From assembly GCA_025617745.1 (NCBI GenBank), contig CM046855.1, positions 45,487,813-45,551,812 of the forward strand: a stretch of DNA of 64,000 nucleotides, read 5' to 3'. The notes under the pieces are model-generated. The model saw only the letters and a program-made list of their open reading frames with translations, was not told the DNA's origin and ran no database searches. Made by a program: the position numbers and the translations under genes. Below are positions 3,693 to 47,875 of the stretch, piece by piece; positions within the stretch are counted from its first letter, which is position 1; each line of letters starts with the position of its first letter. The stretch is from Heliocidaris erythrogramma. Lineage: Eukaryota; Echinodermata; Echinoidea; Camarodonta; Echinometridae.

Positions 3693-6600
3693 TCATTCAC
3701 TTAGCCTCTGCTCCGGTGTCCCCGATGAGATGGTTGTTGCGGCTTGGACTGGTACAGGCGGCATTCCTCCTGACATGGCTTGGGTCATGGGGTGTCCCTG
3801 CATAGGAAAAGGTACAGTAGAATATGGCTGATAATTGCCCACAGGGTACATTCCAGAGAGTTGCACACTTTGGGGAGGCATACGGGGGTGGACATAGAAC
3901 ATGGGTTGTTGGACGGGTGGGACCATGCTAGAAGTGGTAGGGGCAATGACCATGCTAGGGTGAGTGAACATGTAAGGTAAGCCTGCCACAGGGGGTTGCG
4001 AAGGGACTGAGGATTGTTGTGAGGGGACACTTGAGGTAACAGTTGTAAGGTTTGTGGTTGTTTGGACAGCCTGGAGCTGCACTGCCTGCATTTGCTGCCT
4101 CAGAAGCCTCATTTCCTGCTGCTGCTGCAGGAGTAATTTCTGGAGATCCATCTTGTCCATAGCCATGAATTCTTTTACATCGTCGGGCAGGGACTCGTCA
4201 CTGGCTGAAGGCTGGGTAGCGAGATTGGACAATGAGCTTGATAAACCTGATGATTCCTTTAGTGATGCAGTTCTACCGACTCTGCTCTCTGGCACAAATG
4301 CTTTACTTTTAGCACTGACCCTCCCAAACAGTTTTTCTTCCAGGCTAGCTGTACTTGTATTCCCATGCTTCCAAGGGGCAGGTTTGCTACTTGAAATGAG
4401 TGCATCAGGTTCAACGGAAGAAGAAATATCAGAGAACCCAGAATCCATTCTAGGAATCACTGTCGTCGTTGATACATCAGACATGTCATTTTCAGATGAA
4501 CTGTCCTTGTCTGAAAAATCATCAGTAGAGCTAAGTGGAAAGACACCTCTCCTTACTCCATATGCCTTTTTCTTCTGTTTTCGCATCATCCTTGCTTGAT
4601 TTGCCAGACTTGGTGACATGTTCCATGGAATATCTATTGAGGCATCTGTTAAAGTAGTATCAGTATCCTCCCCTGTGCGATCACTTTCATTAATCATATT
4701 CCGCACAGCAGTCAAATCAAAGTCAATGTTTGGACTAGATCTTGCTTTCCGTCTCTTTTCTCGCAATCTTGCTCTAGCCTCCGTGTCCCTGAGGGCGATG
4801 GTGGAATCATCTCCTGGTTTTGGTGCAGACTGCTGGGTTGAACTTGATCTTGCCTCGACCAAGGAGTTCTGAGCTCTTATTACGGAAAGGATACTCTCTG
4901 TTCGCTGGTGAATTTCATGGAAACGACTTAAGTGATATGAATCATCTGGTTTCACCTTGTCTTCGTCTGAGCCACTAGATTTTTGTCTCATATTCTGTAA
5001 CATCTCCTTGGTATCATCTGTTGACTGATCAGACAAAATTTCCACGGTATCCAGCAATAGTTCTTCCTCTGTCATTTGTGTCTTTTGAAGTTGGCTTTTC
5101 TGGTTGTCTGTAAAATCTTGATTTGAAACAACTTCAATTGTTTGAACAGTCTCTGCTGTTGTTTTTTCATCTATGCCATCATTCACATCGTCCCGACCTA
5201 TAGTTTCAGAAATAACGTCGATGCTATTTGGTGTGGGAGTAGACTTTAGAATGACTCCACCACTGGACACCTCCATGGAACCAACATCTGTATCTGCAGG
5301 ATTTCTGGACAATCGTCGGATATTTTTTCTTGCCTGCATAATCAAGTTAAAATGTTGTTCTTCTTGATCATCCTCTACTTTTTTAGGCCTGGACTCTACC
5401 ACTTTCTTCTTTTCTTGTTCTTCCATTTTCTTCTTTTTCAAAGCTTCCTTCCATGGCACAACTGTGGATGATGAAGATGCCTGTGCTTTGTCAGCGTTAA
5501 CTTCCTCTTTCATTTTTCGCTCTGTAGCAGTTTTAAGTTTGACATCTTTCCAGGGCACAGAAGATTTTTCACTCACTTCTTGTCTTTTATTTATTTGTGG
5601 AACTGGCTTTGATGACTTCTTTTCATCAGCAGTTTCAACATTTTTCCGCTTGATCAAAGAGTCTTTCCACCACGCGTCAGATTTTGCTTCATCTTTTCTA
5701 GTCGAGTCATTCTCGGATTTCTTGGTCTCCAATGAAGTCCTCTTTTTAAGAACATCCCTCCATGGATTTTTAACATCCTCAGAACCTGTAGACTTCTTTG
5801 GATTAGTCAACTGCTTGGGTTTCTCTTCGACTTTATCATTTGAAGTTAAAGGAACGCTATCAGACTTTGTTTTCAGTGATCCTTTTTTTGTTCTGCTCAA
5901 GTTGTCACCCTCAGGCTGTGTCTTGTCTTTTCCAAACATATTGCGTGTGCTCCGGACCATACTGCGACTTGCAAGCTTTGCCAACTCCTTCTGGTCTTGT
6001 GTGAGAGGTTTCCCTTTGCTTGTCTGTTCTTGTGTTAGACTTCCTATATTTTGTGATGAGTCTCTCATATATCTGCTTTTAAGAACATCCCATCCACCTT
6101 GTCTCTCTGATGAGGTTGATGCCTTATACATAGATCTGGTTCCAGTTGTCTTCTTTGCTTCTCTATCATCTTCAGCTTCCTTACTTTTACTGTCCGAAAT
6201 GGCAACTGGAGAACTACTGATACTGATGAGAGAACCACTTTTCTCCACTTTACCCAACAGGGTATTCCTTGGTTTGGCATCTATATCATCTGTTTCTGGT
6301 GCAGTTATGTCCACTTTACTGGACAGGATAATGCTGGGTACAGTGTCTACATCTTGTGTTTCTGGTGTACATATGTCCACTTCACTTGACAGTGTAATTT
6401 TTGTTTTGGTATTTCCATTTCGTGTTTCTAGTCCAGTCGAGTCCACTTTACTTGATAGGGTAACGCTGGGTTCAGTATCTTTGTAGTCTACTTCTGGTAC
6501 TGTCCTATCTGCAAGCTGATCTTCAACATTCTTTACTTTTTCTACTTTCATGTTTTCAATGAGACTTTCAGTTTTTGAATGAACAGGAGTTTCAAGTTCC

Positions 6601-9600
6601 ATTTGTATGCTAGCTTCCAACAATTCATTATTTTCAAGTTCAATTTGTCCATTGTCAATTTTAAATTTATCTCCAGTCTGTCCACTCTGAACTTTAGATT
6701 CAACTCCGTCACTCTGAGCCTCCTGCTTGTAACCACTTGTATCAATGGGAGCTCCCATTAAATGAGACAGTCCTTCTCGTAACATTCTTCTGTTATCAGC
6801 AGAGCGGTCACGTTTCAGTACTGCAGCACCCCTAGCCATGTGGAGGGCTAGAGATATACCAGATCCACTTTTGTCAATATCTTTCAATGATACCGACTTT
6901 CTTCGAACATATGGTAGCTCTTCTTCCAAACGTGATTCATTTTGTTCATCTGTCTTGGATGTTTCCATTGGAGAAGAAACTTCTTGTCCAGAATACCCAC
7001 TCGCAGTGTCAATGCTGCTAGATACATTTTCCAGCTTTGCATGTATGTCTCTAACTTCGAAGACCTTGTCAGTTTTGACCTCCCTTTTAGGAGCTGTAAT
7101 ATCCATTTTGCCTGCTGTTATTACTTCAGATACTGTACCTCCTACAGATTCCTTGGCTTGAAAATTGTACGTTGGTGAATCATCACCTGAAGGAATATTG
7201 CCAGTGGTATATTCACGTAAAATTTCTCCAAGAAGGGAATCGCGTGATGATTCAGACTGCCATTTCTTAGATTCCAGATTTGGTCGTCTCTCTGGTTTAC
7301 GGGATTGATCCCTTCGTAAAATCACATCTGGTTCATCTGCTCCAGGAGTGACATCTACTTCTGCACTATAATGAGGAGACACGGACTCATGCACTGCAAC
7401 AGATTGGTTAATAAGCACATCAGACACAGCAGGAACGGTCTCATAAAGCAGGTCAATTTGAGTGGGAGATGCATTAACACGTTTGGGTTTAGGGGGTGGC
7501 GCACCATACGGGAGTGGCATGCTCTTCACAACTTCATAAATTTCATGCATATTTTCATCATGCATGCTTTCTTCATCAACACCAGCTATCACAACAGGTG
7601 TTGATGAAGGGGGACATAAATCTGGTTCAGACTCGACAGACAACACAAGTGCATTTGCATTCAAAGGGTAGGGTTGTGCAGACTGAGGGTGTTCACACGA
7701 AACTTCACCAATAGAACTTACCATGACTTTTTCTGTTGCTGGCAACTCTCTCCTGGGAATCTTGCTCTCCTGTGGCGCTGAGGTTAATGGTGTCGTCTTC
7801 GAAGCTGATGATGGCATGGACTCGAGTGATGTTGTTGATGGCCAAGAACCTTCTGAGATGGAATCACGAGATATTGAAGCCAGTCTTTCTGATGGAGGTA
7901 GAGGTGCTCTCCTCTTCTTGTTTTTGCTCTTTGGTGCTTCTACTTCTGCTGCTGCTACTTCTGGTGAGCTTGGAAGAAATTCTGCTCTTGAGTACTGTGA
8001 GGGTACTGTGGCTTGTTGGGATAGTGGTGTGTCTGTGCTGCTTTGAAGTTCTGATAGAGGCCTGCGCTGTTCGTCACTGGGTCTCCCGTCTGTAGCTTCA
8101 GCTGGAATTTCCAGCATGACATCGCGCGACTTCCTCTTGCCTCCAAACAATTTGCTGAGACCTTTCCTCTTGCCCTTGTCACTTGATTCTTTCTTGTGTT
8201 TCCCTTCAGGCTTCAAATGGGAAGGACTTGTTCCAGCAGCTCCGGCCACCTCATCATCATTTGCATTGTTGTTGTGATTCACTTGGACTTCAATATCTGA
8301 ATTGTTGTTGTTGATGTTTAGTACATTGCTATTGTTATTATTTGAGTTTGGGTTTTCATCTTTATCAGAGTCTGAGGAGAGACCAATTGCACTCTTGATT
8401 TTTGAGAAGAAACCATCTTCTGAATCAGATGATGAAGACGAGGATGAAGACGAGGATGAAGATGAGGAGCTTCCAGATCCATCACCTATTCCAACAGCTC
8501 CAAGAAGACTGAATCCGGACTTCTTCTTCTTCTTCTCTTTTTTGTCTTTTTTGTCTTCCTTCTCTTTGTCCTCGCCTCTGTCTTTCTTGCCCTTCTTCCT
8601 CTTTTTCTTCTTCTCCTTCTTTCCCCCACCTATACCAAGGCTTCCTCCAATGCTAATACCACCCTCAGGCATTTCTACATTAATACCAGCACCTCCATCA
8701 CCACCTGCTGAGACATCTGCACTCAAGGCTCCACCACCACCAAGAGATGCAGAAGGAATGTTGGAAGATAAGTCACCACCAGTATTAACATCTCCACCCA
8801 AGCCCAATGTCATATCACCCTTTCCATCCGCGTCAACTCCACCAATGCCAAGGCTGCCACCTCCAACACTGATTCCACCTCCAAAGCCACCGACGTCCAT
8901 ATCCGCTCCTCCCCCAATGCCTCCTTGTCTGCCGATGCTGAAATCTGGCTTGTCAACATCTGTCCCAACTTCTATTCCTACTCCGTCAAGGCTACCTCCA
9001 AGCCCTCCACCGATTCCACCTCCTCCTAGGCTGATGTCTGGTTTGTCAACATCAGCACCAATTTCAATTTCGCCTCCACCAATATCAAGTCCTCCTCCTC
9101 CACCTCCTAGACCGATGTCTGGTTTGCCAACATCGACATCAATTTCCATTCCACCTCCGCCAAGACTTCCTCCAAGCCCTGCTCCAATTCCTCCTCCTCC
9201 GCCTCCAAGGCTGATGTCCGGTTTGTCAACTTTGGAATCAACATCTATTCCTCCTCCTAGATTTCCTCCAAGTCCGCCTCCAAATCCAATACCTCCTCCT
9301 CCTCCTCCTAAGCTGATATCTGGCTTGTCAACATCAGCACCAATTTCAATTCCATCTCCGCCAAGACTGCCTCCAAGTCCTCCTCCGATTCCTCCTCCTC
9401 CTCCTAAGCTGATATCTGGCTTGTCAACATCAGCACCAATTTCAATTCCATCTCCGCCAAGACTGCCTCCAAATCCTCCTATTCCCCTTCCTCCACCCAT
9501 ACTGAAGTCTGGTTTGTCAACTTCGGCTCCAATTTCAATTCCACCTCCGCCAAGACTTCCTCCAAGCCCTCCTCCGATTCCTCCTCCTCCTAGGCTGATG

Positions 9601-12600
9601 TCTGGTTTGTCAACTTTGGAATCAACATCTATTCCTCCTCCTCCTCCTAGACTTCCTCCAAGTCCACCTCCAAATCCAATACCACCTCCTCCTCCCAAGC
9701 TGCCTCCAAGTCCTCCTCCGATTCCTCCTCCTCCTAGGCTGATGTCTGGTTTGTCAACTTTGGAATCAACATCTATTCCTCCTCCACCTCCTAGACTTCC
9801 TCCAAATCCAATACCACCTCCTCCTCCTCCTCCCAAGCTGCCTCCAAGTCCTCCTCCGATTCCTCCTCCTCCTAGGCTGATGTCTGGTTTGTCAACTTTG
9901 GAATCAACATCTATTCCTCCTCCTCCTCCTCCTAGACTTCCTCCAAGTCCACCTCCAAATCCAATACCTCCTCCTCCCAAGCTGATATCTGGCTTGTCAA
10001 CATCAGCACCAATTTCAATTCCACCTCCACCAAGACTGCCTCCAAGCCCTCCTCCAATTCCTCCTCCTCCTAGGCTGATGTCTGGTTTGTCAACTTTGGA
10101 ATCAACATCTATTCCTCCTCCTCCTATACTTCCTCCAAGTCCACCTCCGAATCCAATACCACCTCCTCCTCCTCCCAAGCTGATATCTGGCTTGTCAACA
10201 TCAGCACCAATTTCAATTCCACCTCCACCAAGACTGCCTCCAAGCCCTCCTCCGATTCCTCCTCCTCCTAGGCTGATGTCTGGTTTGTCAACTTTGGAAT
10301 CAACATCTATTCCTCCTCCACCTCCTAGACTTCCTCCAAATCCAATACCACCTCCTCCTCCTCCCAAGCTGCCTCCAAGTCCTCCTCCGATTCCTCCTCC
10401 TCCTAGGCTGATGTCTGGTTTGTCAACTTTGGAATCAACATCTATTCCTCCTCCTCCTAGACTTCCTCCAAGTCCACCTCCAAATCCAATACCTCCTCCT
10501 CCCAAGCTGATATCTGGCTTGTCAACATCAGCACCAATTTCAATTCCACCTCCACCAAGACTGCCTCCAAGCCCTCCTCCAATTCCTCCTCCTCCCAAGC
10601 TGATATCTGGCTTGTCAACATCAGCACCAATTTCAATTCCACCTCCACCAAGACTGCCTCCAAGTCCTCCTCCGATTCCTCCTCCTCCTAGGCTGATGTC
10701 TGGTTTGTCAACTTTGGAATCAACATCTATTCCTCCTCCTCCTAGACTTCCTCCAAGTCCACTTCCGAATCCAATACCACCTCCTCCACCTCCTCCTCCC
10801 AAGCTGATATCTGGCTTGTCAACATCAGCACCAATTTCAATTCCACCTCCACCAAGACTGCCTCCAAGCCCTCCTCCGATTCCTCCTTCTCCTAGGCTGA
10901 TGTCTGGTTTGTCAACTTTGGCATCAACATCTATTCCTCCTCCTCCCAGACTTCCTCCAAGTCCACCTCCGAATCCAATACCACCTCCTCCTAAGCTGAT
11001 ATCCGGCTTGTCAATATCAGCACCAATTTCAATTCCACCTCCGCCAAGACTGCCTCCAAGTCCTCCTCCGATTCCTCCTCCTCCTCCTAGGCTGATATCT
11101 GGCTTGTCAACATCAGCACCAATTTCAATTCCACCTCCACCAAGACTGCCTCCAAGCCCTCCTCCGATTCCTCCTTCTCCTCCTAGGCTGATGTCTGGTT
11201 TGTCAACTTTGGAATCAACATCTATTCCTCCTCCAAGTCCACCTCCGAATCCAATACCACCTCCTCCACCCATACTGAAGTCTGGCTTGTCAACATCAGC
11301 ACCAATTTCAATTCCACCTCCGCCAAGACTTCCTCCAAGCCCTCCTCCTAGGCTGATGTCTGGTTTGTCAACTTTGGCACCAACATCTATTCCTCCTCCT
11401 CCTAAGCTGATATCTGGTTTGTCAATGTCAGTACTTACATCGAGACCTCCTCCTCCACCTAGGTCTCCTCCAATTCCTATTCCACCTCCAACATCAGGTT
11501 TTGGTACGTCTACATCAACATCTCCCTTTCCTCCAAAACCAAATCCAAATCCAAATCCCTTTTTACCCTTCTTTTTCTTCTTCTCCTTTTTGGATTTTTT
11601 CTTTCCTTCTGCATCACTGGAATCTGAACTGCTGCTGCTTGAGGAACTGCTGGAACTACTGGAACCATCTTTTTTCGATTTACCAAAGCCAAAGCCAAAG
11701 CCAAAGCCAAATTTTCCTTTACCATCAGCATCTCCATCAAGGTCTGGCTTGTCTACATCCACTTTAGCACCGATTCCTAATCCACCACTGGCATCTCCAC
11801 CTAGTTTACCACCTCCTCCAATGTTGATATCTGGTTTATCAACATCAACACCTCCAATGCCAAATCCTCCTACTCCTTTCACATCTACATCTGGTTTCTT
11901 GGCTTTAGCATCTATGTCAATGCCACCACCGATTCCTCCCAATTTCAGATCTGGCTTATCAATGTCTGGTCCACCTCCTCCCGCCACATTGACATCAATT
12001 TCTCCATTTGTTCCGGTACCAATTCCACCTCCAATATCTAGTTTAGGTTTGTCAACATCAACATCGAGATCTCCTACACCTATTGTGCCTCCAAACCCTC
12101 CACTTGGCTTACTGGATTTGATGCTTGCATCTATTTCAGGTTTAACAGATATATCTGCATCCACATCTCCATTGACATCTATTCCTCCTGATGGTAGTGA
12201 TGCATCAACTGCAGGTGGCTTGATGTCTACATCTGCCCCTCCTGAGCCTCCGAATCCCAGTTTCCCTCCGATCTTGAACTTTCCACTCTTGTCCTTCTTT
12301 CCAGAGCCATCTTTCTTTCCTTTCTTGCCAAACTTCATGCCAAATCCACCTTCAGGAACATCCATATCTACATCTCCCTTGCCATTGATGTCAACATCTC
12401 CAGAAGGAGCAGACACATCTACATCTGCATCTTTTCCCAGCTTCCCTCCAAGTTTGAATTTGCCTTTCTTGTCTTTCCTTCCTGAACCTTTCTTACCCTT
12501 CTTGCCAAAACCAAATCCAAAACCACCAGAGGGAGCATCAATTTCTGGACCTTTAACATCCAGAGAAGCATCTGGTGCCTTTACATCCACATCTGGCCCT

Positions 12601-15600
12601 TTTACAGACAGGTCTGCAGTACCTCCAATATCTGGTTTAGCCGTTTTGATATCTACATCAACCTCAGGTTTAACAGATATATCTGCATCACCACCTCCGC
12701 CTACATCAATGCTACCAGAAGGCAGGTTGATTTCTCCCTTCGGTGATTCTATATCCACATCTGCACCTCCTGATCCTCCAAATCCCAATTTTCCACCAAT
12801 ATTGAATTTTCCTTTCTTGTCCTTCTTTCCCGAGCCTCCTTTTTTGTCTTTCTTTCCGAAACCAAAGCCAAAGCCGCCAGATGGTGCATCTATGTCTGGG
12901 CCTTTAACATCAAGATCAACATCGGGGGAACTGACGTCACCGCTCAGATTGGCATCTCCTCCGATACCACCTGAAATTTCTGGGGCATCAAGATCGGCAT
13001 CTCCATTCACATGACCTTTGGCTCCACCGCCTAATTTTACTTTCCCAAAGTGAAATCCTCCACCTTTCCCCTTTCTGCCTGAACCTTTCTTCTTGCCACC
13101 AATGTTAAAGCCTCCTCCTATGTCTGCTTTTGGGCCTTCAATGTCAACATCTACATCTGGAGCATCTACTTTAACATCACCACCAGCACCAATGCCCCCG
13201 CCAATGTTAGCCTCTGGCTTGGATGACTTGATATTAATATCTGCTTCGGGCTTGACTACATCAAGGCCAGCATCTATGCCTGCAGAACCAATAGTAATGC
13301 CACCTCCACCAAGATTCACCTTCCCATCCAGTCCACCACTAAGATCAGCATCACCTTTTAGTTCAGGACCTTTAACATCAATGTCTGCACCTACGCCGCC
13401 ACCAAGTTTAACATCTTTCTTATCATCATCGGAGTCAGATCCACCAAAGCTGAGGTTCAAGCCAAAGAAACCTCCCTTCTTTTTGCTCTTTTTCTTCTTC
13501 CCCTTACCGCCAATATCAATTTTACCCTCTGGGGAACTCACACTCAAATCTCCTGACAGATCTGCATCTCCACCTCCTCCAAGAGACACATTGGGTCCTT
13601 TGATGTCGACATCACCTTTGGCTGACATGTCCATATCTGGCACTTCAGCAGACCCTTTTGCTGACTTTCCAAATTTGAGTTTTCCTCCAATGTCAAATCC
13701 TCCCTTTCCTTTCTTTCCTGATCCTTTTCCTTTTTTCCCAAATCCGAATCCAATTCCAGCATCTGGCGCATCGACATCAGGTGCATCAAGTTTCAGATCT
13801 GCTCCTGGTAGGTCAACATCAGGTTTTCCAGCACGAATGTTAATGTCAGTTTCTGGTTTTACAGACACATCTGGTCCATCAAGAGAGAGGCCTCCTGATG
13901 GAGCACTGATACCACCTCCAATTCCTCCAATGCCCCCAGAGATGTCAAGGTCTGGCTTATCAACATCTACATCTACTGATGGACCACTGATCTCACCCCC
14001 AATTCCTCCTCCAAGGCCGCCTCCAAGTCTGCCTCCTACTCCAAGCCCACCACTAATGTCCCCAGAGACATCTAGGTCTGGTTTGTTGACATCTACACCT
14101 ACAGATGGACCACTGATCTCTCCACCAATTCCTCTTCCAAGTCCGCCTCCAAGTCCACCACCAATGCCCCCCGAGACATCTAGGTCTGGCTTATCAACAT
14201 CTAAATTTACACCAAGTCCACCTTTTCCACCAACATCTAGGTCAGGTCCACCAATGCTAAGCCCTCCAGATGGGCCAGATATTCCACCACCTAACCCGAT
14301 TCCTCCAGCTCCACCTACATCAACATCAGGTGCTTCAACATTGATACCTCCACCAATGCCACCTTTGATTCCACCATCAAAATCTCCCGATAGGTCTGGT
14401 TTGTCTGCTTTTAACTTTGCATCAATTTCAGGGCCACTCACAGATATGCCACCCGAGGGTAGCGAGATTCCTCCAGATGGTGTGTCAATGCCTACACCAG
14501 CACCATCACCTCCTCCAATACCTATTCCTCCACCTGCACTAAGATCAGGCTTGTCAAGGCTCACACCTATTCCAACACCCCCTCCTATTCCTCCACCTCC
14601 TCCAATATCAGTCTTGACATCTGGTAATTCCCCATTGACGTCAACATTCATGTCGGGTCCTTTAACTTTTAAGTCGCTACCAGCATCTACTCCTCCTCCA
14701 AGCTTTGGACCTTTGAAGCCAAATCCAAAGCCCTTGCGGCCACCACCTTCTTCATCTGAGCTTGAACTTGAATCCGATGACGAGGAGGATGTGTGATCAC
14801 CACCTCCAAAGCCAAGCTTGAAGCCACCAAATCCAAACTTTTTGCTCTTTCTTTTCTTCTTCTTCTTCTTCCCTTTCACACCACCTTTAATGTTGACATC
14901 TGGTGCATTTACATCCAGGTCTCCTTTAAGATGTGGTCCTTTAACATCAGCATCAGCGTCTATATCTCCTCCTACTTTCATTTCTGGAGCATCAACAGAT
15001 ACGCCACCACTTGGAACATCCGCATCACCCCCTAGCTTGAACTTGCCACCAATACCAAAGCCCTCGTCTTTCTTTCCTCCTGAAATTTTGTATTTCTTTT
15101 TCTTCCCGCCAAGGCTAAATCCAGCATCCGGTGCATCTACATCAATACTTGCACCATTGACTGAAGCATCAGGGCCTTTTATTTTCCCGGCAGCTGATAT
15201 ATCAACATCTGGAGCATCAACATCAACTTTTCCAGAGAGATCGGCATCTGGGCCATGTCCTTTGGATCCAAATTTGAAGCCTCCCAATTTGAATTTCCCC
15301 TTGCCTTTGCTTCCTTTCTTTACTTTTGGTCCTTTGATATTTACATCAAGATCAGCATCAGGGCCATCAACATCAACATTTCCTACAGCTAAAGTTCCAC
15401 CAAGGCCACCTCCACCCCCAATATCTAGGTCTGGTTTTCCTGCTTTGATATTTATATCAGCTTCTGGTTTGATGTTAATGTCAGCTCCTCCCCCAATATC
15501 AGGGCCTGAGATACCACCTCCAGTTTTGGGTCCCTTTATGTCAATATCAGCACCACCAATATCTGGTCCATTTACATCTAGACCAACTCCTCCCCCAAGT

Positions 15601-18600
15601 CCAGCTTTTCCTCCAACATCAATTTCAGCTCCACCAGAGGGTAAGTTAATATCTAGATCAGCATCAGGCTTGGAAACATCAATATCTGCATCTACATCAA
15701 TATCACCTTTACCATGCCCTCCAAATCCGAAATTTGGTCCATGAATTTTGGGCATTTTTAATCCAAATCCAAATCCACCGCCTTTTTTCTTTCCACTTCC
15801 ACTGATGTCAAGATCAGGTCCACTTACATCAAGGTCTGGACCAGAGATGTCACCTTCAACTTTTGGTCCCTTGATGTCAACATCAGGACCTTCAATGGAA
15901 AGATTGGCATCTGGGCCTTTGGCATCAATGTCTACTCCTCCACCAATTCCTCCTCCTACATCCAGTCCTCCTCCAATGTCAGGCTTGCCAGTCTTCACGC
16001 TGACATCAACTTCAGGTTTGGCAATATCTGCATCTACATCAATATCACCTTTTCCATTGCCTCCAAATCCGAAATTCGGTCCATGAATTTTTGGCATTTT
16101 TAATCCGAATCCAAATCCACCTTTTTTCTTTCCACTTCCTTTGATTTTAGGGCCTTTGATATCAACATCGGGTCCATCAATGGAAACACCTCCTTTTGGT
16201 AGGTCAGCATCAATATCTGCTCCAGCTCCACCACTGATATCAAGGCCAACTCCTCCTGATGGAAGGTCTGCATCCCCACTGACATCCAGTTCAGGTTTGG
16301 AAACATCAACATCTGCATCTACATCTATATCACCTTTACCATGGCCTCCAAATCCGAAATTTGGACCATGAATTTTGGGCATTTTTAACCCAAATCCGAA
16401 TCCACCTTTGGGCTTCTTTCCACCTCCACTGATGTCAAGATCAGGTCCACTTACATCAAGGTCTGGACCCGAGATGTCACCTTCAACTTTTGGTCCCTTG
16501 ATGTCAACATTAGGACCTTCAATGGAGAGATCTGCATCTGGACCTGCGGCATCAATGTCTACTCCTCCACCAATTCCTCCTCCTACATCCAGTCCTCCTC
16601 CAATGTCAGGCTTGCCAGTCTTTATGTTGACATCAACTTCAGGTTTGGCAACGTCAACATCAGCATCTACATCTACTCCTGCCCCACCATGGCCTCCAAA
16701 TTTCGGTCCCTCAAACTTAGGCATTTTTAATCCAAATCCAAATCCGCCTTTTTTCTTTCCACTTCCTTTGATTTTAGGGCCTTTGATATCAACATCGGGT
16801 CCATCAATTGAAACATCTCCTTTTGGTAGGTCAGCATCAATATCAGCTCCAGCTCCACCGCTGATATCCAGGCCAACTCCTCCTGATGGAAGGTCTGCAT
16901 CCCCACTGACATCCAGTTCAGGTTTGGAAACATCAACATCTGCATCTACATCTATATCACCTTTACCATGGCCTCCAAATCCGAAATTTGGACCATGAAT
17001 TTTGGGCATTTTTAACCCAAATCCGAATCCACCTTTGGGCTTCTTTCCACCTCCACTGATGTCAAGATCAGGTCCACTTACATCAAGGTCTGGACCCGAG
17101 ATGTCACCTTCAACTTTTGGTCCCTTGATGTCAACATCAGGACCTTCAATGGAGAGATCTGCATCTGGACCTGCAGCATCAATGTCTACTCCTCCTCCAA
17201 TACCTCCTCCAAAATCCAGTCCTCCTCCAATGTCAGGCTTGCCGGTCTTCACGTTGACATCAACTTCAGGTTTGGCAACGTCAACATCAGCATCTACATC
17301 TACTCCTGCCCCACCATGGCCTCCAAATTTCGGTCCCTCAAACTTTGGCATTTTTAATCCAAATCCAAATCCACCGCCTTTTTTCTTTCCACTTCCACTG
17401 CCTTTGAGTTTAGGGCCTTTTATATCAACATCAGGTCCATCAATGGAAACATCTCCTTTTGGTAGGTCAGCATCAATATTTGCTCCAGCTCCACCACTGA
17501 TATCAAGGCCAACTCCTCCTGATGGAAGGTCTGCATCCCCACTGACATCCAGTTCAGGTTTGGAAACATCAACATCTGCATCTACATCGATATCACCTTT
17601 ACCATGGCCTCCAAATCCGAAATTTGGACCATGTATTTTGGGCATTTTTAACCCAAATCCAAATCCACCTTTGGGCTTCTTTCCACCTCCACTGATGTCA
17701 AGATCAGGTCCACTTACATCCAGGTCTGGACCTGAGATGTCACCTTCAACTTTTGGGCCCTTGATGTCAACATCAGGACTTTCAATGGAAAGATCTGCAT
17801 CTGGACCTGCGGCATCAATGTCTACTCCTCCACCAATTCCTCCTCCTATCCCTCCTCCAACATCCAGTCCTCCTCCAATGTCAGGCTTACCAGCCTTCAT
17901 GCTGACATCAACATCAGGTTTGGCAATATCAACATCTGCATCAATATCACCTTTACCATGTCCTCCAAATTTCGGTCCATGAAACTTGGGCATCTTAAAT
18001 CCAAATCCAAACTTGCTCTTTTTCTTTCCACTGGCTTTGAATTTAGGGCCTTTTATATCAACATCAGGTCCATCAATGGAAACATCTCCTTTTGGTAGGT
18101 CAGCATCAATATCTGCTCCAGCTCCACCGCTGATATCCAGGCCAACTCCTCCTGATGGAAGGTCTGCATCCCCACTGACATCCAGTTCAGGTTTGGAAAC
18201 ATCAACATCTGCATCTACATCAATATCACCTTTACCATGGCCTCCAAATCCGAAATTTGGACCATGAATTTTGGGCATTTTTAACCCAAATCCGAATCCA
18301 CCTTTGGGCTTCTTTCCACCTCCACTGATGTCAAGATCAGGTCCACTTACATCGAGGTCTGGACCCGAGATGTCACCTTCAACTTTTGGTCCCTTGATGT
18401 CAACATCGGGAGCTTCAATGGAAAGATCGGCATCTGGGCCTTTGGCATCAATGTCTACTCCTCCACCAATTCCTCCTCCTACATCCAGTCCTCCTCCAAT
18501 GTCAGGCTTGCCAGTCTTCACGCTGACATCAACTTCAGGTTTGGCAATATCTACATCTGCACCTGCATCTACATCAATATCACCTTTTCCATTGCCTCCA

Positions 18601-21600
18601 AATCCGAAATTCGGTCCATGAATTTTTGGCATTTTTAATCCGAATCCAAATCCGCCTTTTTGCTTTCCATTTCCACTGCCTTTGATTTTAGGGCCTTTGA
18701 TATCAACATCAGGTCCATCAATGGAAACATCTCCTTTTGGTAGGTCAGCTTCAATATCAGTTCCAGCTCCACCGCTGATATCCAGGCCAACTCCTCCTGA
18801 TGGAAGGTCTGCATCTCCACTGACATCCAGTTCAGGTTTGGAAACATCAACATCTGCATCTACATCGATATCACCTTTACCATGGCCTCCAAATCCGAAA
18901 TTTGGACCATGAATTTTGGGCATTTTCAACCCAAATCCGAATCCACCTTTAGGCTTCTTTCCACCTCCACTGATGTCAAGATCAGGTCCACTTACATCGA
19001 GGTCAGGGCCTGAGATGTCACCTTCAACTTTTCGTCCTTTGATGTCAACATCTGGACCTTTGGCATCGATGTCTACTCCTCCTCCAATACCTGATCCACC
19101 AATAGAGAGGTCAGCATCTGGTCCATTTGTATTAATGTCTACACCTCCTCCAAATCTTCCTCCTATTCCACCTCCAATGCCGCCCCTGGCATCTATATCA
19201 GGTTTTGCTGTTTTGACATTCATATCAACCTCTGGCTTGGTAATATCTAAATCTGGACCCTCAACATCGAGACCAGCTCCTCCACCAAGACCACCTCCAA
19301 TAGCTAGTCCTCCAGAAGGCACTTTCACATCACCACCCACATCAAGATCTGGTTTGTCAACATCAAGATCAATGTCTACTCCTCCTTTTCCACTGCCTCC
19401 AAATCCAAATTTGGGCATTCCAATCCCAAACTTTCCCTTCTTTCCTCCTCCACCGATATCTACATCAGGACCAGAGATGTTACCTTCCACTTTGGGACCT
19501 TTGATGTCGACTTCAGGACCCTTTACATCAATGTCTCCTTCTAATCCTGCTCCAACATCTGGCTTAGACATACCAGCATCAATGTCAAGATCTGCATCAC
19601 CATGCCCTTTGCCTCCAAAGCTGAAATTTGGTAGGTTAAAACCGAATTTGCCTTTCTTCTTGCCACCTTTAACATCAAGATCTGGACCAGAAATGTCACC
19701 TTTCATGTTTGGTCCCTTGATATCAACATCAGGACCATCAACTGAGAGATCTGCATCAGGGTTCTTTATGTCTACGCCACCTCCACCTCCTATCCCTCCT
19801 CCGATTCCTCCTCCAATGTCTGCTCCAACTCCGCCTGATGGTAAGTCAACATCTCCACTCAAATTAGGTTTAGCAGTTTTCACATTGACATCAACTTCAG
19901 GCTTGGCAACATCGATGTCAGCATCAACTCCAGCTCCACCATGACCTCCAAACTTGGGTCCTTTGAAGCCAAATCCAAACTTTCCCTTCTTCTTACCTCC
20001 TGCATCTACATCGACATCTGGACCACTTACGTCTCCTTTTAGCTTTGGAGCATCAACATCAACATCAATGTCGGCTCCACCCTTGACATCGGCATCTACA
20101 TCCATTTTGGCATCTCCTCCACCACCAAAGAAGTTAAAGTCAAATTTGGGAAACTTGAAGCTGAATCCACCCTTCTTTTTCTTCTTTGGTTTCACTCCAA
20201 GCTCCATATCAAGGTCTGCATCTGGAGCTTTAACTTTACCTCCAATACTTGGCCCAGCGAGTCCAATGTTCAAATCAGCATCAGGACCGTCAACTTTTCC
20301 TCCGATACCCCCACCGATACCTCCACCAATGTTGCCACCTGAAAGATCAACTTTAGCCCCACCTCCTGGAATGGATGCATCTGGAAGATCCACTTCACCT
20401 TTGGCATCAGGGCCCCTTACATCAAAACCTGCTCCACCTCCTAGATTGGCAGTGGGTAAATCAATCCCTCCACCAGCTCCTCCTCCAAATCCAATTTTGG
20501 GTGTGTCAACATCCATTCCAATCTTTCCTGATGGCATGTCAATGTCACCTCCGACTCCTCCTCCAATGTTGGCTGATGGAGCATCTATTCCACCTCCAAT
20601 GCCAATACCCCCTGAAGGTAAGGAAGCACCTCCTACGTCTCCTTTGATTCCAATACCTCCAGAAGGAAGATTTCCACCAACATTTAAGCCACCCGAGGGC
20701 GAATTTGCATCTATTCCTCCAGATCCTCCAATGCCTCCCTTTATACCAATGTCTCCTGAGGGCATGTCCATTCCACCACCAACCTTGATGTCACCGGATG
20801 GTAAGTTACCTCCAATATCCCCTCCTCCACCAATTCCTATGCTTCCTTTAGGCATCTTCACATCTCCACCAGCATTGATGTCTCCAGATGGCATGTCAAT
20901 ACCACCACCAACACCACCTCCAATACCTCCTCCAATGTTAGCAGATGGTGTATCAATTCCACCTCCAATTCCAATTCCTCCAGAAGGAAGACCTACACCT
21001 CCACCACCTCCAAGTCCTAGTCCTAGTCCTCCTTTTGGAGCATCAATTCCTCCAGATGGCAAGTTAACATCAACTCCTCCAGAGGGAAGTTTGGCATCTC
21101 CACCAGCATCTATGCCTATTTTGGGTGCATTTACATCTATGCCTCCTCCTCCAAGTCCAAATCCACCTTTAGGAGTATCAATATCTCCACCAATCTTTAC
21201 ATCAGCTGATGGCACATCACCTCCTACTTTCACGTCTCCAGACGGAAGATCAGCATCAACATTAAGTCCTCCTCCAAATCCGCCACCTATACCTCCGGAT
21301 GGCAAATCACCTTTCACATTAACATCTCCTGATGGTACATCAGCTTTTAGATCTGCCTTTGGACTTTTCCCTTTACCACCAAAGGAGAAAGATGGCATTT
21401 TGACACCAAACTTTCCTTTTTTTCCTATGTCTGCATCTCCATCAAGGTCTATTTTTGCATCTGGTCCTTTAACATCAACGTCAACACCTCCCCCAATACC
21501 ACCACCGATTTCTCCTCCAATGTCTGCTCCTCCACCTACAGAAACATCACCACTTGGAACTTCTCCCTTCACACCACCTCCAATGTTTGCATCACCTGAT

Positions 21601-22268: not shown

Positions 22269-22460
22269 CTGTAGATTTGGAAAGAAAAGAAAAGAATGAA
22301 ACAAAATTACTACAAAGATACTATCAAAGTTGTAATGGCTACTTCATATTTGTTGATAAGTTTGTTCAATTCAGAAAGGACAAAGGATGTGGACCATTTC
22401 TTCTCTTGAGAGAAAAGTATAGAAATAACTGATGACATACGATCAACTGATACTCTAGAA

Positions 22461-28321: not shown

Positions 28322-28413
28322 CCCGACAGGGAGTGATGCTGAAGGCAAGCCGATTCCGACTGAAGCTGATGGTAGTTCACCGCCGACTGACCCCTCAACA
28401 GACATCCCGGCAC
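28322..28413 (-). CDS. Exon 3 of the AHNAK-like gene
   Basis: This 92-nt internal exon has acceptor TTACCTTCAG above 28413 and a perfect GTAAGT donor at 28321-28316. It completes a Ser codon with exon 2 and ends in phase 0. It encodes residues 144-174, beginning SAGMSVEGSVGGELPSASVG, with two LPSAS motifs. This is the same PS/G/V style as the LPSGG repeats that start exon 4, which supports its membership in the gene. The splice signals and the frame agreement at both junctions are the evidence; no separate domain is visible. Confidence 0.85.
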
Positions 28414-32180: not shown

Positions 32181-32276
32181 TTGCGTCTGTATCAAGGTCT
32201 GGTTGGGCTTGTGCTAGTTCGTCTATTGCTAGTGGGGCCTTGCCCACTCCTCCACCCCTTGCACTTGCTCCGGCGC
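32181..32276 (-). CDS. Exon 2 of the AHNAK-like gene
   Basis: This 96-nt internal exon lies between a CTCTCTGCAG acceptor (above 32276) and a perfect GTAAGT donor (32180-32175). It enters in phase 1, completing a Gly codon with exon 1, and leaves in phase 1. It encodes residues 112-143 with no stop: Gly/Ala-rich at first (GAGASARGGGVGKAP), then an acidic, Gln-containing stretch (IDELAQAQPDLDTD). No known domain is recognised. The low-complexity Gly/Ala composition continues that of exon 1. The exon sits about 70 bp from a mariner-like MITE in intron 2. Confidence 0.8.
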
Positions 32277-40616: not shown

Positions 40617-40643
40617 CCCCCCCCCCCCCCCCCCCCCCCCCCC
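40617..40643 (+). repeat. C27 homopolymer
   Basis: Uninterrupted run of 27 C after GTCCGA. The length is unusual for an otherwise AT-rich intron and is prone to sequencing error. Confidence 0.9.
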
Positions 40644-41029
40644 GTTTGAAGAATAACCATATAAAGTAACTGCAACTTGATGTGCAAGTCGGGCAACCCA
40701 CCCCACCCCGTACATCCGAGGAAGATCCTACATCATCATGTTTACAAATTTATGGGTCCATCATTGTAGAACTGTTACGTATTTGCTTCATTTCAATTTA
40801 CCCTAGTACATTTTCAATTGAATAAAACTTAATTTCTTCTCATGCCAAAAGTATATCTTCCACCATTAAAAAAAAAAACATTTTCATCTTTTCCAACAAG
40901 GATTCCCCGCAAGGCCCTTTGGGCGCAAAAGCCAATGTTGAGGTCAATTTACTTATTATGCAATATGGTTTTATGGTCACCGCTTTTATATAATTAGAAT
41001 AGATAACACTTGACAGCTTCAACTTATTC

Positions 41030-41216
41030 ACTCTAAAAACTCAAATGTTTAAATCTACATTTAAAAGGTTGGAGGAGTGTCAATATTTTTAAAATGGTAA
41101 ATGGATCTAATAGTTTAAAGGTTGGATGCAGCATGTTAAAAGTGTTCATTTACCATTTTGAAAATGTTGTCACTCCAACCTTTTAAATGTAGATTTAACA
41201 TTTGAGTTTTTAGAGT
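41030..41216. mobile_element. MITE with ACTCTAAAAACTCAAATG ends
   Basis: Inverted terminal arms of about 55 bp: ACTCTAAAAACTCAAATGTT on the left and AACATTTGAGTTTTTAGAGT on the right, continuing through an AAATCTACATTTAAAAGGTTGGA match. The 187-bp element is non-coding. A central inverted TAAATG/CATTTA pairing continues the hairpin. Confidence 0.75.
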
Positions 41217-42121
41217 ATTGCTTGCAAATATTGTTCACCAATCATCATAGCGGTTAATTCACGTAATTTTAAACAAATTAATTATTCGCATACTGGTATG
41301 TGTGTTAATTAGGGAGCACTCAACATTTTATCGTAATTTTTGTAATTTTGGCATAAAATTTGAATAGACTTGGAGCAGATCGATCATACATTGACATGTC
41401 AGTATAACAGTTTAACAAATGGATATTACTTTCCAGATCCCTACTGACTAATTACAGTAATTTGTATGATATTATGGATGAATTCCATCTGTGTTTGGAA
41501 AGCCTCGTGCAAGATTTGGGTGGTCACGGACTATTTATCATCTAATAACATAAAATTTGAATACATTGACTGAATATGCCACTAATTTGCTACGAAATCC
41601 CAACCCATAATTCTGAAAAATAAATAACCATGAAGAAAAATATCGCGTTGCTAGTGCTTGCATTGCTACATGGCCAAAGGCACAAAACCAATGTCAACTA
41701 AACATCGTCTTTTCCTTAAATCCCATGGTATCAACTTAATTTTCCCGTTATCTGTTACAAGCTTGCAAAATAAATAACACAGAATGGGGTAAACCAATCG
41801 CAACGCGATCAATAAAAGCGGAATTAGGTCGTTGACACAAGTAGTCATAAAATCTACATCTGTTCGTCTGCTCTGTCAATCTTGACTTCGCGATAAACCG
41901 ATAAATGTTCGCAAATGACGATAGAATGGAACGACGGTTCAAATAATTAATAATAATCCAATTAAAGTCCACTCCAAATTTTATTAACCGAAATGGAAAT
42001 TCTTTTTGCCCAATTGATCATGTGCCCGGCAGCCACTGTGCAGCGCCAGATCGACGTGCTCTATATCCCTTCAATTGTTGAACGCAAAACAAGGTAGCAG
42101 CAACTCCCATCTTTTAACGTA

Positions 42122-42200
42122 TGTTGGTATGACGCGGTCGAGGTTCGAACCCACGACCTCCCGATTGTGAGGCGGACGCTCTACTGAGCCAACACATCGG
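42122..42200 (-). repeat. tRNA-derived SINE-like fragment
   Basis: On the minus strand TGGCTCAGTAGAG matches the RNA polymerase III A box and GGTTCGAACCTC the B box, with CCGCCTCACAATCGGG between them where the anticodon arm would be. The outer ends pair poorly as an acceptor stem and the anticodon stem is weak, so it is not called as a functional tRNA. Such tRNA-related heads are common in SINEs of marine invertebrates. Confidence 0.65.
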
Positions 42201-42459
42201 TGAACTGCAGGCAGGAAATTTGGGAGTGAGGGTGGAATATGTGGACTACAAGATAACTAAGCAAACATGCTTGACGAAATATCTCCTAGTTCCTTGTAAT
42301 GTATGTTAGGAGGAATTTGATAAATAAAGTGGGGATAAAGACGTAAAAATCACACTTGATGAGACCAAGGTCTTTCTACACAAGGAATATCCCATATCAG
42401 TGATTGGCAGAACACTGGCCATGTGGCAATCCTTCTAACGGGAATTGTCTACATTACAG

Positions 42460-42655
42460 AGGTCGCGTGCATGAGGATACCTTGTATTACGCAATGGTTA
42501 CCCCTCACACAACATCCCCAGGCCATGAAACTAAGGTCAGCCTACGCAACGAACAGAACATCTGCAGTTCAGAGGTCACACAAGGACACCGTATATGCAA
42601 TACTGAGGTCGCGTGAGGACACCTTACATTACGCAATGGTTACCCCTCACAGACC
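42460..42655 (+). repeat. Degenerate direct repeats
   Basis: AGGTCGCGTG..GAGGATACCTTGTATTACGCAATGG (42460-42500) recurs at 42606-42645 as a near copy, both followed by TTACCCCTCACA. A third, worse copy (AGGTCACACAAGGACACCGTA) lies between. The unit is roughly 60-140 bp. Confidence 0.65.
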
Positions 42656-42752
42656 CCGATAAAATCAGTGATTGGCAAGCCATGGGCTGTTGGAAAAATG
42701 TAAGTTCGCCTTAACAATGTCTTCCCTTTTTCTTCTTTCGATTGAATTGACA

Positions 42753-42789
42753 GTTATGATGGATGTATGGACCATACATCCATCATAAC
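42753..42789. repeat. Perfect 37-bp palindrome
   Basis: Two 18-base arms (GTTATGATGGATGTATGG and its exact reverse complement) flank one A. It could form a hairpin with almost no loop. Confidence 0.9.
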
Positions 42790-43779
42790 GCACAGTACGG
42801 TACCGCCACATAAAATTCATAAAAATTACCATTTAAAATTATGCAGCACATTGGATATGCTATTTTTAGCTTTAATACAGAAAACTATGATTCAACAATC
42901 AAGTCACTGATCTAATAAAATACAATTTTGCAGGCCTATTCCTCTAGCAAGATTTTGAAAGTAAAAATGAAAATGAAAATGCTCCTTTTATTTTTTTTTA
43001 TCCATTTAATACTACCAATGAAGGTCAATTTCTGAATCACTGAAATGAGGATACAATCATAACAGTAAAGTTGTCAACGTGTCTGAGAGTTGATACTAGT
43101 ATGGTGTTGGGGAGATTACTGCCATTCGCGTGTAACTTGTCCTCAAAACGGTGTAGTTAGCACGCTCTCAAATTGAACTTCTACCCTAGGGCGATTTCAT
43201 TCTCACTCTCTCCCTCTTTCTCTCTCTCTTACCCTCCATCGCTCTCCACTCTCTTCACCATTGGAATTCGGAAACCACCAAGCAGCACATTTTGGCCCAA
43301 TTGTTTCCACCGACACGGTCACACAAGGTCAACGGAGAAAACAAGATTCTGGAGCTAAACGCTCTTGGGCCAAGCACTTCCCTGGGCCAAGTGTGTGAAG
43401 ATGCCAATTTGAGACTGATAGGTAGGTAGAAGGGTGGGTGCGTGCACTGGTTAAGAAAAAAGATGGACTATGGATCCACTACGACAGTTGATAAAATATA
43501 CCGGCTTTGCATGGTGGGGGCAAACAAAAATATCTAATTTTAAAATTACGATAAAATTTTACGATAGAGTAATATTTAAGATTACCATCCCAGAAAGTTG
43601 TGCGAATTAACCGATTGTATGACATTCAAATTGTCATTAACATTAAAAAACAATCTATTCCAACTTTTGAAGCATTAAAATAAATCCTAATAAAATATCA
43701 CCTGTAATACAACTTTTAAACATATAAAATGCTCAAAATCTTTCTACTTCATTAAATTTTGTTCCTCTTACTGTTCGAG

Positions 43780-43930
43780 CAGTGGCGGCACCAAGGGGGG
43801 GGGCATGGGGGCATTTGCCCCCCCCCCCCAGTTGCCCCCAATAATTTTCGGAGTGAAAAAAAGTAAAAGGGTGGAAAGTTTTACTTTTAAAGAAAAAGTT
43901 CCCCTCCCCCCAAAAGTGGTGCCGCCACTG
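43780..43930. mobile_element. hAT-type MITE with 8-bp target duplication
   Basis: Ends CAGTGGCGGCACCA and TGGTGCCGCCACTG are exact inverted repeats. The element is flanked by TGTTCGAG at 43772-43779 and 43931-43938. An 8-bp duplication and CAGTGGCG ends fit hAT. The interior has G and C homopolymers and an AGTAAAAGGGTGGAAAGTTTTACTTTT hairpin-like portion; it is non-coding. Confidence 0.85.
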
Positions 43931-46900
43931 TGTTCGAGTCGTTGAAATACTAATTTATTATTCTGCATATTGCATGAACGCATATCGATCCAACCTCTAT
44001 TTGAACAGTAGTATATTCAAGAATTTTAAAAACTCATGTGATATATGATGGTCCTTTTTTTCTTTCGACATCCATTGTTTTCAGAATAGTTTTTGTCATC
44101 CCCAAAGACCTCAATGCAAAAGTAAAAAAGGGAACAGACCTAGAAGTTTTGCTGTTGTGAATTCACATTTCCCAGATGATGTAATCTGCGGGGAAAACTA
44201 CGAATAATACTTATTGCAGAGCATTTTTCCCCAACTGTGTTACAAAATCAATTTCATTATTCTTCTCTTCATCTGCTGAATAAAATCAAGGTGAAATCGA
44301 CGGCAAACATGAGTGTCAATGTGCAGAATATGTCAACCATTGACAGTGGCTGCAAGGCATATTTTTTTGCAATGATTTTAGTTTAATTGGATTAGAATCG
44401 TAAACTTCGAAAAAAGAAAGGAAAGTAAAATGTGATTTGCTACACTTAGGAGAATTTAACTTTGTGATAACTTATTTTCTCCATTGTCCTTTTATTTCTA
44501 GGGGGGTGCGTTGCTTTTCAAGTAACATTCCCGTTTTCCATCGTCCTGAGCAAAAAGCTTAGCCAATCTGGGGTCAAGGGTCACAGAGCCAACCCAAGGA
44601 GGACGGCGAGATGAAGTGGCGAGATGAAGTGTCGAATGAAGTCTCCCAAACTCATCTGTCTGACCTCCAGCTCCGACCTCCGAAATTCCTCTCGAATTGA
44701 AACTTGTTACCAGACATTACACCACCAGTCTTGTGAGGTTCCGTAAAACAACATGCATACTACTACTACACCCGGATACAAGAGCGTTCTAGCAGTTATG
44801 TTTTAAAAATTATAAACATGTTTACAATATTCAGTAACATCTATGACAGAAAACTGTTTACGTCAGGTGGCCATATACGTACATGTACGGGACTAAACAT
44901 GTTGAAAAATTACAAATCAAGTAACTGATTTTTGCAGTGCTAATTTGCGGTATATTTATGGCAAGCCTCTCTCCACGACTAAAAAAAGGGGGCACGAAAA
45001 TGTTAGATGTGGTGGACTATGTTCTTGCACGAAAAATAATCCAAAAAAATATTTCACATCATAAATGAGGATTAATTTTGAAGTTAATGTTAAGAATATT
45101 GATTCAAATAGGGTATAGGGCATAATATCTTGCATAAATGGAACTGCTTGGATATACGACGTACGAGTTAGAGCAAGGAGTTATTCACAGAGTAGTTGGA
45201 GTAGTATTCCTAATTCATGCCTTCAGGGTGGCGATTATTGACATATTTACTATGTTTTGATAAACCAGGGCCCAGTCTTCTGTTGTTTTAAGGATCAAAA
45301 TATTTTTGTTTCGTCTCACCGAATTTTTAATTGGCCTCCTTGACATGAGCCCCTCTACTTCAAGTATGGGCGGGGATGGGGTATGCTTGGTACTATGTAT
45401 TCTGTATTCCGTTGAAATTTTGTGAAATTTCCCCCCTCTTTTTTCAGTTAGGTCGCACAAACTCATGACTTAATTTAAAGTACGTGTTTCTATCTGACAT
45501 TGTGTCTACTTAAAGCATATAAAATTGCAATGAAACTAAAAAGTGAAAAATACCTACGCAATAACATTACCATACATGATTTTGATCTATAGGTTGAACG
45601 GTTAAAATATTGTAGGACTACAACGTGCATGTCGCGGGGCTACATTTTATCGCATCTGTCTGATCAGAAAGATAGGACCATAATGGATAACTTTATCCTC
45701 TTCAAGAGAAATATTAGGTAGAAGTGTTTCATTTTTACTGGAAATGTACTACATACCATCCCACATCAATGGCTTTGCATACAACACGGTTACATTTTGA
45801 TCCTGCCCTGTGGATTGGATACGCAGGCTTATTGGTTTGACTTCCGAGCTATTCACCCGGATTAAGAAAACATATTCCATGGGAAAGTGCTTTGGTCGGA
45901 AGTATTCTTCATGTTGGAGCCGTGAGCATTAATTTGTTTTGCATTTGACTTTGTCATCTTGCTGCAGCAAAAGTTTGAAGGAAGAATATTCGACACAAAA
46001 ATCTGAAGCCCCCGGTTGTGTTATAATGCATCTTACAGGGACTCGGGCACGTAGCTCAAAGAAACTGGGGGAGCAAATTGAATGAATTCCTGGAGAGGAC
46101 GTATTTGAGCAATACTCTGAATTTTGTTTTCTTTTATTTCTTTCTTAAATGGAAAAGAAAGGTAAAATCTAATTCTCTTTTTTGGACCGCGTGGAGCGAG
46201 GCCACCATAATCCGTAGCCTCTCTATTCACGCTGTGCATGCACACTACACCAAACGTATACTATCAGTGTTCAACAAGTAGCAGGGCGTGTCAATGGACC
46301 ATACCACTTACAATGAAGGGAGTTCCAGACTATCTTACTCGTGGTCTTGCCAGAATCGTGTACCGAAGTCGGTGATTTCTCCAAGTAAACATTTGCTTAA
46401 TAATATATCCCAATTTTATAGGTGCTCATTACACATGGATAGGCTATACGTCTCATTTCTTGACAATACCGGGATGTACAGTACCAAATAAGTGCATTCC
46501 ACATTTCATGATTATATTTTAACATCCCTTCTACCAAAGTAAAAATGTCCCGCGTGCTCAGTGGGTATGAAAGGCAACAATTCTCCACAAACCGCAAAGA
46601 AAAGAAGTCTTTTGAGTATTGCCTAAATAAAAGTATAATAGAGTGGTGGAATAGAACACATCGCTTTTCACGATGTATGCACAACCCAAGGCTAAATATG
46701 GACGCCATTATGGCGCTTTACGATATTTGATGTTGAAATCCAATGACAATTCGTGATAGTGATGGCAATGTCCTTTAATATGTAGCCCACTTTCGGGTGA
46801 ACTTCGTGTACAGTACATTATGAATAGCGAGTTTCAGTGTAAACTCCCCCCGCCCACCCCAACGTGTTCATTGAGATACAGTATACACGAGAAAGTTTTC

Positions 46901-47541
46901 GAAAATATGTATTCTCTTCCAAATGACTAAGTTTGGTGGATAATACACTCAAAACATAACTCCCGCGGGTCATTTCAAGTAACCAAAAGTAAGATCAAAC
47001 TTTTCCAACAACATTAAAGTTTGGAGGATAAAAAGGTCACATACCTAAGCGAATGGATGATGTTAAAGATCCCCGGCAGCACTGCATAATGGACTCCAAA
47101 ATAGGGGTATCCGAAAACTGACTATGCGTTCTCCCACTCATATTTACCGGGATGGGCTGGGCTTATCCATTCCCATGATCCACTCTAAACCACCACATTC
47201 CTTCAAACTACTGGACTATACATCGCCTCGGCCCTAATTATACAAAGCCCGCATTTTCGTTTCCATCAAAATCGACTCTTTTTTTTCTTGTGTGAAGCGA
47301 AGCGAGCCTTGTGAAGCACGTTGTGAATAGAAATGTTGATTGTGTCTATTCTAATACGGCTCTTAGCCAAGACTCGCCATGCATAGGATTTGTGATCTTA
47401 GTTATTTTTTTTAAGTGTATGTTTTATTAAATCAAAAGACAAAAATCAGTTACTTTAAACTCACTGCCCCCTTCTATACTCCCTAATACTATAAAGCCCT
47501 TGTGGTCAAGCTATGCGGAATGATGAAAATGGGATATTTAC

Positions 47542-47875
47542 CTCCTTTTGCTCCCACTCCAGCTCCCACTCCAGCGCCCACTCCAGCGCCCACGCCCACT
47601 CCAAGTCCAGCCCCAGCTCCAACTCCTGCAGATGTATCGATGTCCATATCGATGTTGGGCGTCTCGGCTTCCACACTGACATGCCCGCCCGCTTCGGCCT
47701 CTCGTCCTCCTTTGCGCTTACTTCGTCGTTCCCGGCCAGATCGACGAAATGAGTTACGGAGAACACGGTTGAAACTCAGCCGTCTCTTCTTCTTGACAGG
47801 TTCCCCCGCCGTCACATCGGCATCTGCCGAAGCCGATGCCTCGACTGAAAAACTTGCCGAGGGCTTATTCCCCAT
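47542..47875 (-). CDS. Exon 1: myristoylation signal and MARCKS-like basic domain of the AHNAK-like gene
   Basis: This exon encodes residues 1-111 plus the first base of codon 112. The start ATG at 47875-47873 has A at -3 and G at +4, and an in-frame TAA lies nine codons upstream. The protein begins MGNKPSAS: Gly2 and Ser6 fit the N-myristoyltransferase consensus. Residues 28-57 are strongly basic with embedded Ser/Phe (KKKRRLSF, then NSFRRSGRERRSKRK), which resembles the MARCKS effector domain that binds acidic phospholipid, calmodulin and actin and is phosphorylated by PKC. An acidic stretch (about residues 68-82, NIDMDID) and a Val/Ala/Gly dipeptide run (84-109) follow. The donor is GGAG|GTAAAT at 47541-47536. 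Joining to exon 2 forms a Gly codon and keeps the frame open. It belongs to the same gene because phases, Gly/Ala/Asp-rich composition and strand all agree; transcript evidence is lacking. Confidence 0.85.

Follow-up and report, generated by a model that had tools for sequence, protein, structure and literature searches.

Vertebrate AHNAK begins with a PDZ domain and reaches the membrane together with S100A10/annexin A2. The gene of a second described system, MARCKS, carries its intron before the basic segment. According to PMC10682155, the AHNAK gene is built from small exons and one giant exon, and the repeat unit comprises 128 residues in AHNAK, where the repeats total 4,392 residues, and 165 residues in AHNAK2. 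S100 proteins, according to PMC7356379, occur in vertebrates alone, and therefore, an echinoderm counterpart of AHNAK would need another anchor. In echinoderms, sea cucumber genes named AHNAK are expressed (PMC6037860 and PMC11925454): a phosphopeptide, GPSLKGGADVEIPSGK, is given for an AHNAK-like protein in the former, and in the latter AHNAK is a marker gene of one cell group in another sea cucumber. Among the titles and abstract openings covered by a literature search, there is neither an AHNAK with a myristoylated N-terminus nor an account of an AHNAK origin outside vertebrates.

The window analyzed here, a stretch of 64,000 nucleotides from the echinoderm Heliocidaris erythrogramma, harbours what is, judged by its sequence, a real, single-locus gene for a giant AHNAK-like repeat protein. 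Mitochondrial codon use agrees with an echinoderm: in cox1 of C24, a 12.9-kb contig with mitochondrial genes, 3 of 4 AAA codons correspond to Asn in cattle and 4 of 4 AAG codons to Lys, in keeping with the echinoderm code. The assembly has 26 contigs, of which C22-C26 are shorter than 0.2 Mb and nine of C1-C21 were seen to measure 37-79 Mb; a set of about 21 large contigs fits a sea urchin. Four minus-strand exons at 47542-47875, 32181-32276, 28322-28413 and 3693-22268, all with GT-AG borders, join in phases 1, 1 and 0 into a reading frame that has no internal stop and codes for 6365 residues plus a stop codon. The initial annotation had arrived at the same four exons and the same protein length, and its exon structure was reproduced. 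Exon 1 starts at an ATG at 47875 (A at -3, G at +4) and codes for residues 1-111, which include the N-myristoylation motif MGNKPS, a basic segment and an Ala/Gly tract. After an intron of 15 kb come exon 2, which is in phase 1 at both borders and codes for residues 112-143 in 96 nt, and exon 3 (92 nt, residues 144-174). The giant exon 4 spans 18,576 nt, codes for residues 175-6365 plus the stop and lies within a single stop-to-stop frame of 6216 aa (3693-22343). Searched against the whole genome (1.06 Gb), neither a 209-residue repeat unit nor the C-terminal 1435 residues matched anything but this gene. The four-exon model is supported by computation, the splicing itself being predicted.

Most of the protein consists of repeats. 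Five AHNAK-like units, each about 209 residues long, stand in tandem at 15921-19079 (minus strand); they are 90-97% identical to the first unit, and their dN/dS values, 0.11-0.32 across ten pairs, are as expected of a translated frame under purifying selection. A glycine-rich VDKPDISLG array lies at about residues 3762-4640 (8871-11507, minus strand; borders set by eye), and glycine makes up 30% of residues 175-4640. The repeats were compared with one human AHNAK unit, against 200 block shuffles. The AHNAK type that the initial annotation had assigned to exon 4 emerged most clearly in residues 1001-2400 (z 8.9) and 2401-3700 (z 5.8), where none of the 200 shuffles was as good. The score was lower in residues 175-1000 (z 3.0, 1/200), and z was 2.2 both in residues 3701-4700 (8/200) and in residues 4701-6365 (7/200). 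Exon 4 also holds all 20 basic/aromatic segments of the protein, defined by a net charge of at least +6 and at least three aromatic residues per 25 residues; in 100 shuffles of the protein the mean number was 0.3 and the maximum 2. An AlphaFold model of the five repeat units together is poor (mean pLDDT 44.4) and has no secondary structure; it fits disorder, which it does not prove, and the repeats are probably disordered. Four poly-serine/acidic tracts occur in exon 4 (residues 292-308, 2668-2681, 3710-3726 and 4774-4792), each of them near a Lys/Arg-rich, Phe-containing stretch, like a recurring module that probably contains CK2 sites.

The assembly contains a second copy of exons 1-3, and the C-terminal 1435 residues are encoded once. 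Window positions 27386-64000 recur on the same contig (C3) at 45685748-45741812, in pieces that are 89-99% identical, and this second copy starts directly behind a 500-N gap, with its first base at 45685748. A tandem gene duplication was considered and rejected on account of the start right after the gap, the degree of identity and the single-copy C-terminus; from its sequence, the second copy is read as an uncollapsed haplotype. In both copies the reading frame has a TAA stop whose first base lies 27 nt upstream of the ATG. Exon 1 differs between the haplotypes by two substitutions, both amino-acid changing, and a 6-bp in-frame deletion, and the N-terminus of the haplotig copy reads MGNKSS. 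A test of selection on exon 1 from this comparison was too weak, as divergence was as low in 14% of 191 equally sized windows nearby and in 42% of 384 windows taken across the entire alignment. Exon 2 and its flanks are identical in the haplotig copy (216/216 bases). Exon 3 of that copy has a 1-bp deletion about 1 kb from the contig end, to be explained by a fault in the assembly or by a broken allele. Elsewhere in the assembly, a number of PDZ matches form near-equal pairs at similar spacing (about 315 kb on C8, 42.92-43.41 Mb), which suggests further uncollapsed haplotypes.

The small 5' exons are linked to the giant exon by splice sites, frame and sequence style. Candidate splice sites within the introns (minus strand, about 1400) were scored with simple weight matrices. 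The donor of exon 1 and the acceptor of exon 4 were scored as well, and the sites of exons 2 and 3 were ranked. The acceptor of exon 2 ranks first among 1327 AGs and its donor 13th among 1423 GTs, and the respective ranks of exon 3 are sixth and second. With a threshold of at least 6 at both sites, exon 3 is the sole candidate exon, and the donor of exon 2 (4.8) lies below that threshold. Seven peptide pieces of exons 1-3 were also aligned to exon 4, with 200 shuffles per piece. The repeat style of exon 4 is seen in residues 59-82, in exon 3 and in exon 1 as a whole (no shuffle as good in each case), and residues 1-27 were equalled by a single shuffle; the basic segment (33/200), the Gly/Ala tract (31/200) and exon 2 (55/200) did not stand out in this alignment. 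The predicted membership of exon 2 rests on its splice sites and frame.

For comparison, 221 other ORFs of at least 90 aa were collected from 264 kb around the gene, after removal of the exon 4 span, exon 1 and the haplotig exon 1. The raw score of exon 1 to exon 4 is 102, against 74 for the best of these ORFs. By z-score, exon 1 (5.8) is beaten by one of the 221, a Lys/Glu-rich EEF1G exon (6.1), and two ORFs, this one among them, reach a z of at least 5. In all, exon 1 is very probably the first coding exon of the giant-repeat gene. The 5' end of the model might be wrong, with exon 1 being part of a different transcript or exon 4 being preceded by other first exons, and the length of intron 1, the lack of a clear repeat likeness in exon 2 and the base missing from exon 3 of the haplotig copy can be cited in its favour. 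Yet the splice sites of exons 2 and 3 rank high, exons 1 and 3 are written in the repeat style of exon 4, the frame stays open through three introns, and no other gene was recognised by eye among the ORFs of at least 90 aa upstream in the window. We regard an error of this kind as very unlikely.

At the N-terminus, residues 1-7 (MGNKPSA) fit the N-myristoylation pattern PS00008, and the myristoylation consensus called by the initial annotation is borne out to this extent. The basic Ser/Phe segment, which had been likened to the effector domain of MARCKS, extends over residues 28-58 (KKKRRLSFNRVLRNSFRRSGRERRSKRKGGR; 47702-47794, minus strand). Its 31 residues are Arg-rich, carry a net charge of +15 and include four Ser and two Phe. 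Aligned to the MARCKS effector-domain sequence given in PMC11864169, the segment scores higher than any other part of the protein (43, with a 4-residue gap required), and 1 of 1000 shuffles did as well. Next comes a segment of exon 4, residues 2483-2516, with a score of 42 (2/1000); for each of the other 19 basic/aromatic segments of the repeats, at least 41 of 1000 shuffles did as well, and the best of the 221 other ORFs reaches 34. The resemblance of the basic segment to the effector domain beyond its composition is supported by these sequence comparisons. AlphaFold, applied to exon 1 alone, predicts one helix at residues 35-49 with low confidence (mean pLDDT 54.7), and the hydrophobic moment there ranks 11th among 6347 windows of the protein.

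The initial annotation had described the N-terminus as MARCKS-style, a description that stands for the effector-domain likeness and does not extend to the MARCKS family domain: the Pfam MARCKS profile, which covers the MH2 region, matched neither exon 1 nor residues 1-214 at E up to 1. The same profile matched nowhere in the genome and likewise nowhere in control genomes, so that this search is without a positive control; the same limit applies to a search with a 28-residue effector query for the MARCKS gene of this genome, which gave no match. From its sequence, the N-terminus, which by profile is not a MARCKS domain, plausibly works like that of MARCKS. A different function of the basic segment, as a signal for nuclear localisation or as a simple polybasic anchor that is constitutive and has no MARCKS-like switch, appears unlikely. 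Its dense Arg/Lys clusters and spacer do fit a bipartite nuclear localisation signal by eye, it contains just two Phe, and basic patches are common in this protein, since 20 other basic/aromatic segments occur. However, in 999 of 1000 shuffles the fit to the MARCKS effector domain is poorer than with the actual residue order, a myristoylation motif is found on the same N-terminus, and the model places a helix at residues 35-49.

The non-repetitive C-terminal region comprises about residues 4700-6365 (3696-8693, minus strand; border set by eye). It contains four W(K/R)(D/E) motifs in residues 5671-5790 (5421-5780, minus strand), three of which follow a Pro and most of which are followed by Leu and Lys; further single Trp motifs are found near them, and no known domain over cut-off lies there. 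A KKRRAPLPP stretch at residues 4958-4966 (7893-7919, minus strand) is similar to the KRAP motifs of Cordon-bleu. In Pfam, the last 1435 residues gave nothing over cut-off, the best match being CYAA_C (E 0.002, 18.8 bits, cut-off 22), and the other Pfam matches of the protein were likewise below cut-off (KRTAP, E 0.97; SR-25, 0.33; DUF6470, 0.47). Against the PDB, the best match of the last 1435 residues has an E of 0.33. As to the C-terminal peptide of AHNAK that binds S100A10/annexin A2, a phmmer search of the PDB with residues 175-2574 and the last 1435 residues gave no match to an AHNAK peptide, phmmer being weak for peptides of 20 residues.

The initial annotation had remarked that the protein does not start with a PDZ-like domain, and a Pfam search of residues 1-214 indeed gave nothing at E up to 1, PDZ included. 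Across the genome, the PDZ profile gave at least 141 matches at E up to 1 with 150 of 176 candidates scored, the nearest on C3 lying 2.9 Mb away; weak or split exons could be missed by this search. Because a PDZ domain, a defining feature of AHNAK, was looked for in these searches and not found, the gene is not classed as a member of the AHNAK family.

The neighbourhood suggests a counterpart. Genome-wide, the Pfam profile EF1G matches five times, in each case on C3 and on the minus strand. The first pair (45662365 and 45658843) lies 123 kb upstream of exon 1, and the second pair (45854840 and 45853576; 45853576-45855022) lies 147 kb upstream of the haplotig exon 1; a partial match is found at 45943867. 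The second pair is probably the other haplotype. The EEF1G exons upstream of the window gene (45653831-45666774, minus strand) were recognised as five ORFs, one of them at 45663761, of which two match EF1G over cut-off (E 6e-23 and 1.1e-12; 45658843-45662553). The other three have no Pfam match over cut-off and were assigned to EEF1G by eye. EEF1G is thereby placed upstream of exon 1, on the strand of the giant gene and 123 kb from it, an exact place that rests on scaffolding because the piece that carries EEF1G lies between two 500-N gaps. In human, AHNAK directly adjoins EEF1G at 11q12.3, with both genes on the minus strand and AHNAK at the lower coordinates; compared with this arrangement, order and orientation are the same here. 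MTA and INTS5, two more of the human neighbours, do not extend the synteny, since MTA lies on C3 at a distance of 18 Mb and INTS5 on C17. EEF1G is the best argument for an AHNAK counterpart over a look-alike, a reading that is supported.

Repeats of low complexity and like style might instead have arisen independently, with EEF1G nearby by chance, so that the gene would not be the counterpart of AHNAK. Such an origin would account for the missing PDZ match, the unit of about 209 rather than 128 residues, the 30% glycine in residues 175-4640, the tail without a match over cut-off and the distance of MTA and INTS5. It has to contend with EEF1G, found upstream on the same strand (as in human), and with an AHNAK unit that matches the repeats far above block shuffles. 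Small exons with one giant exon are, moreover, the plan of the AHNAK gene (PMC10682155). We judge an independent origin to be improbable, though with some weight. Given its small 5' exons, the AHNAK-type repeats of its one giant exon and an EEF1G gene close by in the same orientation, the gene may be an AHNAK counterpart, and we lean towards reading it as the positional counterpart of vertebrate AHNAK in an echinoderm, anchored by a myristoyl group and a basic helix. A positional counterpart in an echinoderm would date AHNAK before the split of echinoderms and chordates, and would mean that something other than the PDZ domain unites the AHNAK family.

The mechanism of a myristoyl switch is plausible only; it is derived from this anatomy and from printed accounts of MARCKS (PMC3660367). 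Gly2 is expected to be myristoylated, and an Arg/Lys-rich amphipathic helix with four serines would sit in the place of the PDZ domain. Lipid and basic helix would jointly hold the N-terminus on the acidic, PIP2/PS-rich plasma membrane, and release could occur by phosphorylation of Ser34, Ser42, Ser46 or Ser52, or by Ca-calmodulin. The repeats, probably disordered and with 20 basic/aromatic patches between acidic stretches, would form a submembrane scaffold. More tentatively, the AHNAK locus might predate the vertebrates and its N-terminal module might have been exchanged, with a MARCKS-type myristoyl-electrostatic switch in the echinoderm and PDZ plus S100A10/annexin A2 in vertebrates, and the repeats may add many basic/aromatic lipid-binding patches. 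If so, these additional patches would make the protein a multivalent PIP2 scaffold.

Compared with MARCKS, the protein of 6365 residues has an intron after rather than before the basic segment, and the segment is Arg-rich with two Phe, whereas that of MARCKS has five; no Pfam MARCKS match is found here. Like MARCKS and MARCKS-like 1, it has an N-terminal myristoylation consensus, a spacer with Ala and Asp/Glu, and a basic segment that aligns to the effector domain and has serines near basic residues. Compared with vertebrate AHNAK, AHNAK2 and periaxin, it has a myristoylation motif and a basic helix instead of a PDZ match, is glycine-rich and ends in a tail without a sequence match over cut-off; its units of about 209 residues also differ from the 128 or 165 residues of AHNAK and AHNAK2. 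If it is a counterpart, it would provide a testable case of one scaffold with two unrelated means of membrane attachment. In common with AHNAK, AHNAK2 and periaxin, it has a giant exon of tandem repeats behind small 5' exons, thousands of repeat residues in the style of DVDIKGPK and KMPKF, and a long C-terminal tail. The sea cucumber phosphopeptide cited above shows a similar GGADV..PSG style (PMC6037860), and the repeats total about 4,470 residues here and 4,392 residues in AHNAK (PMC10682155).
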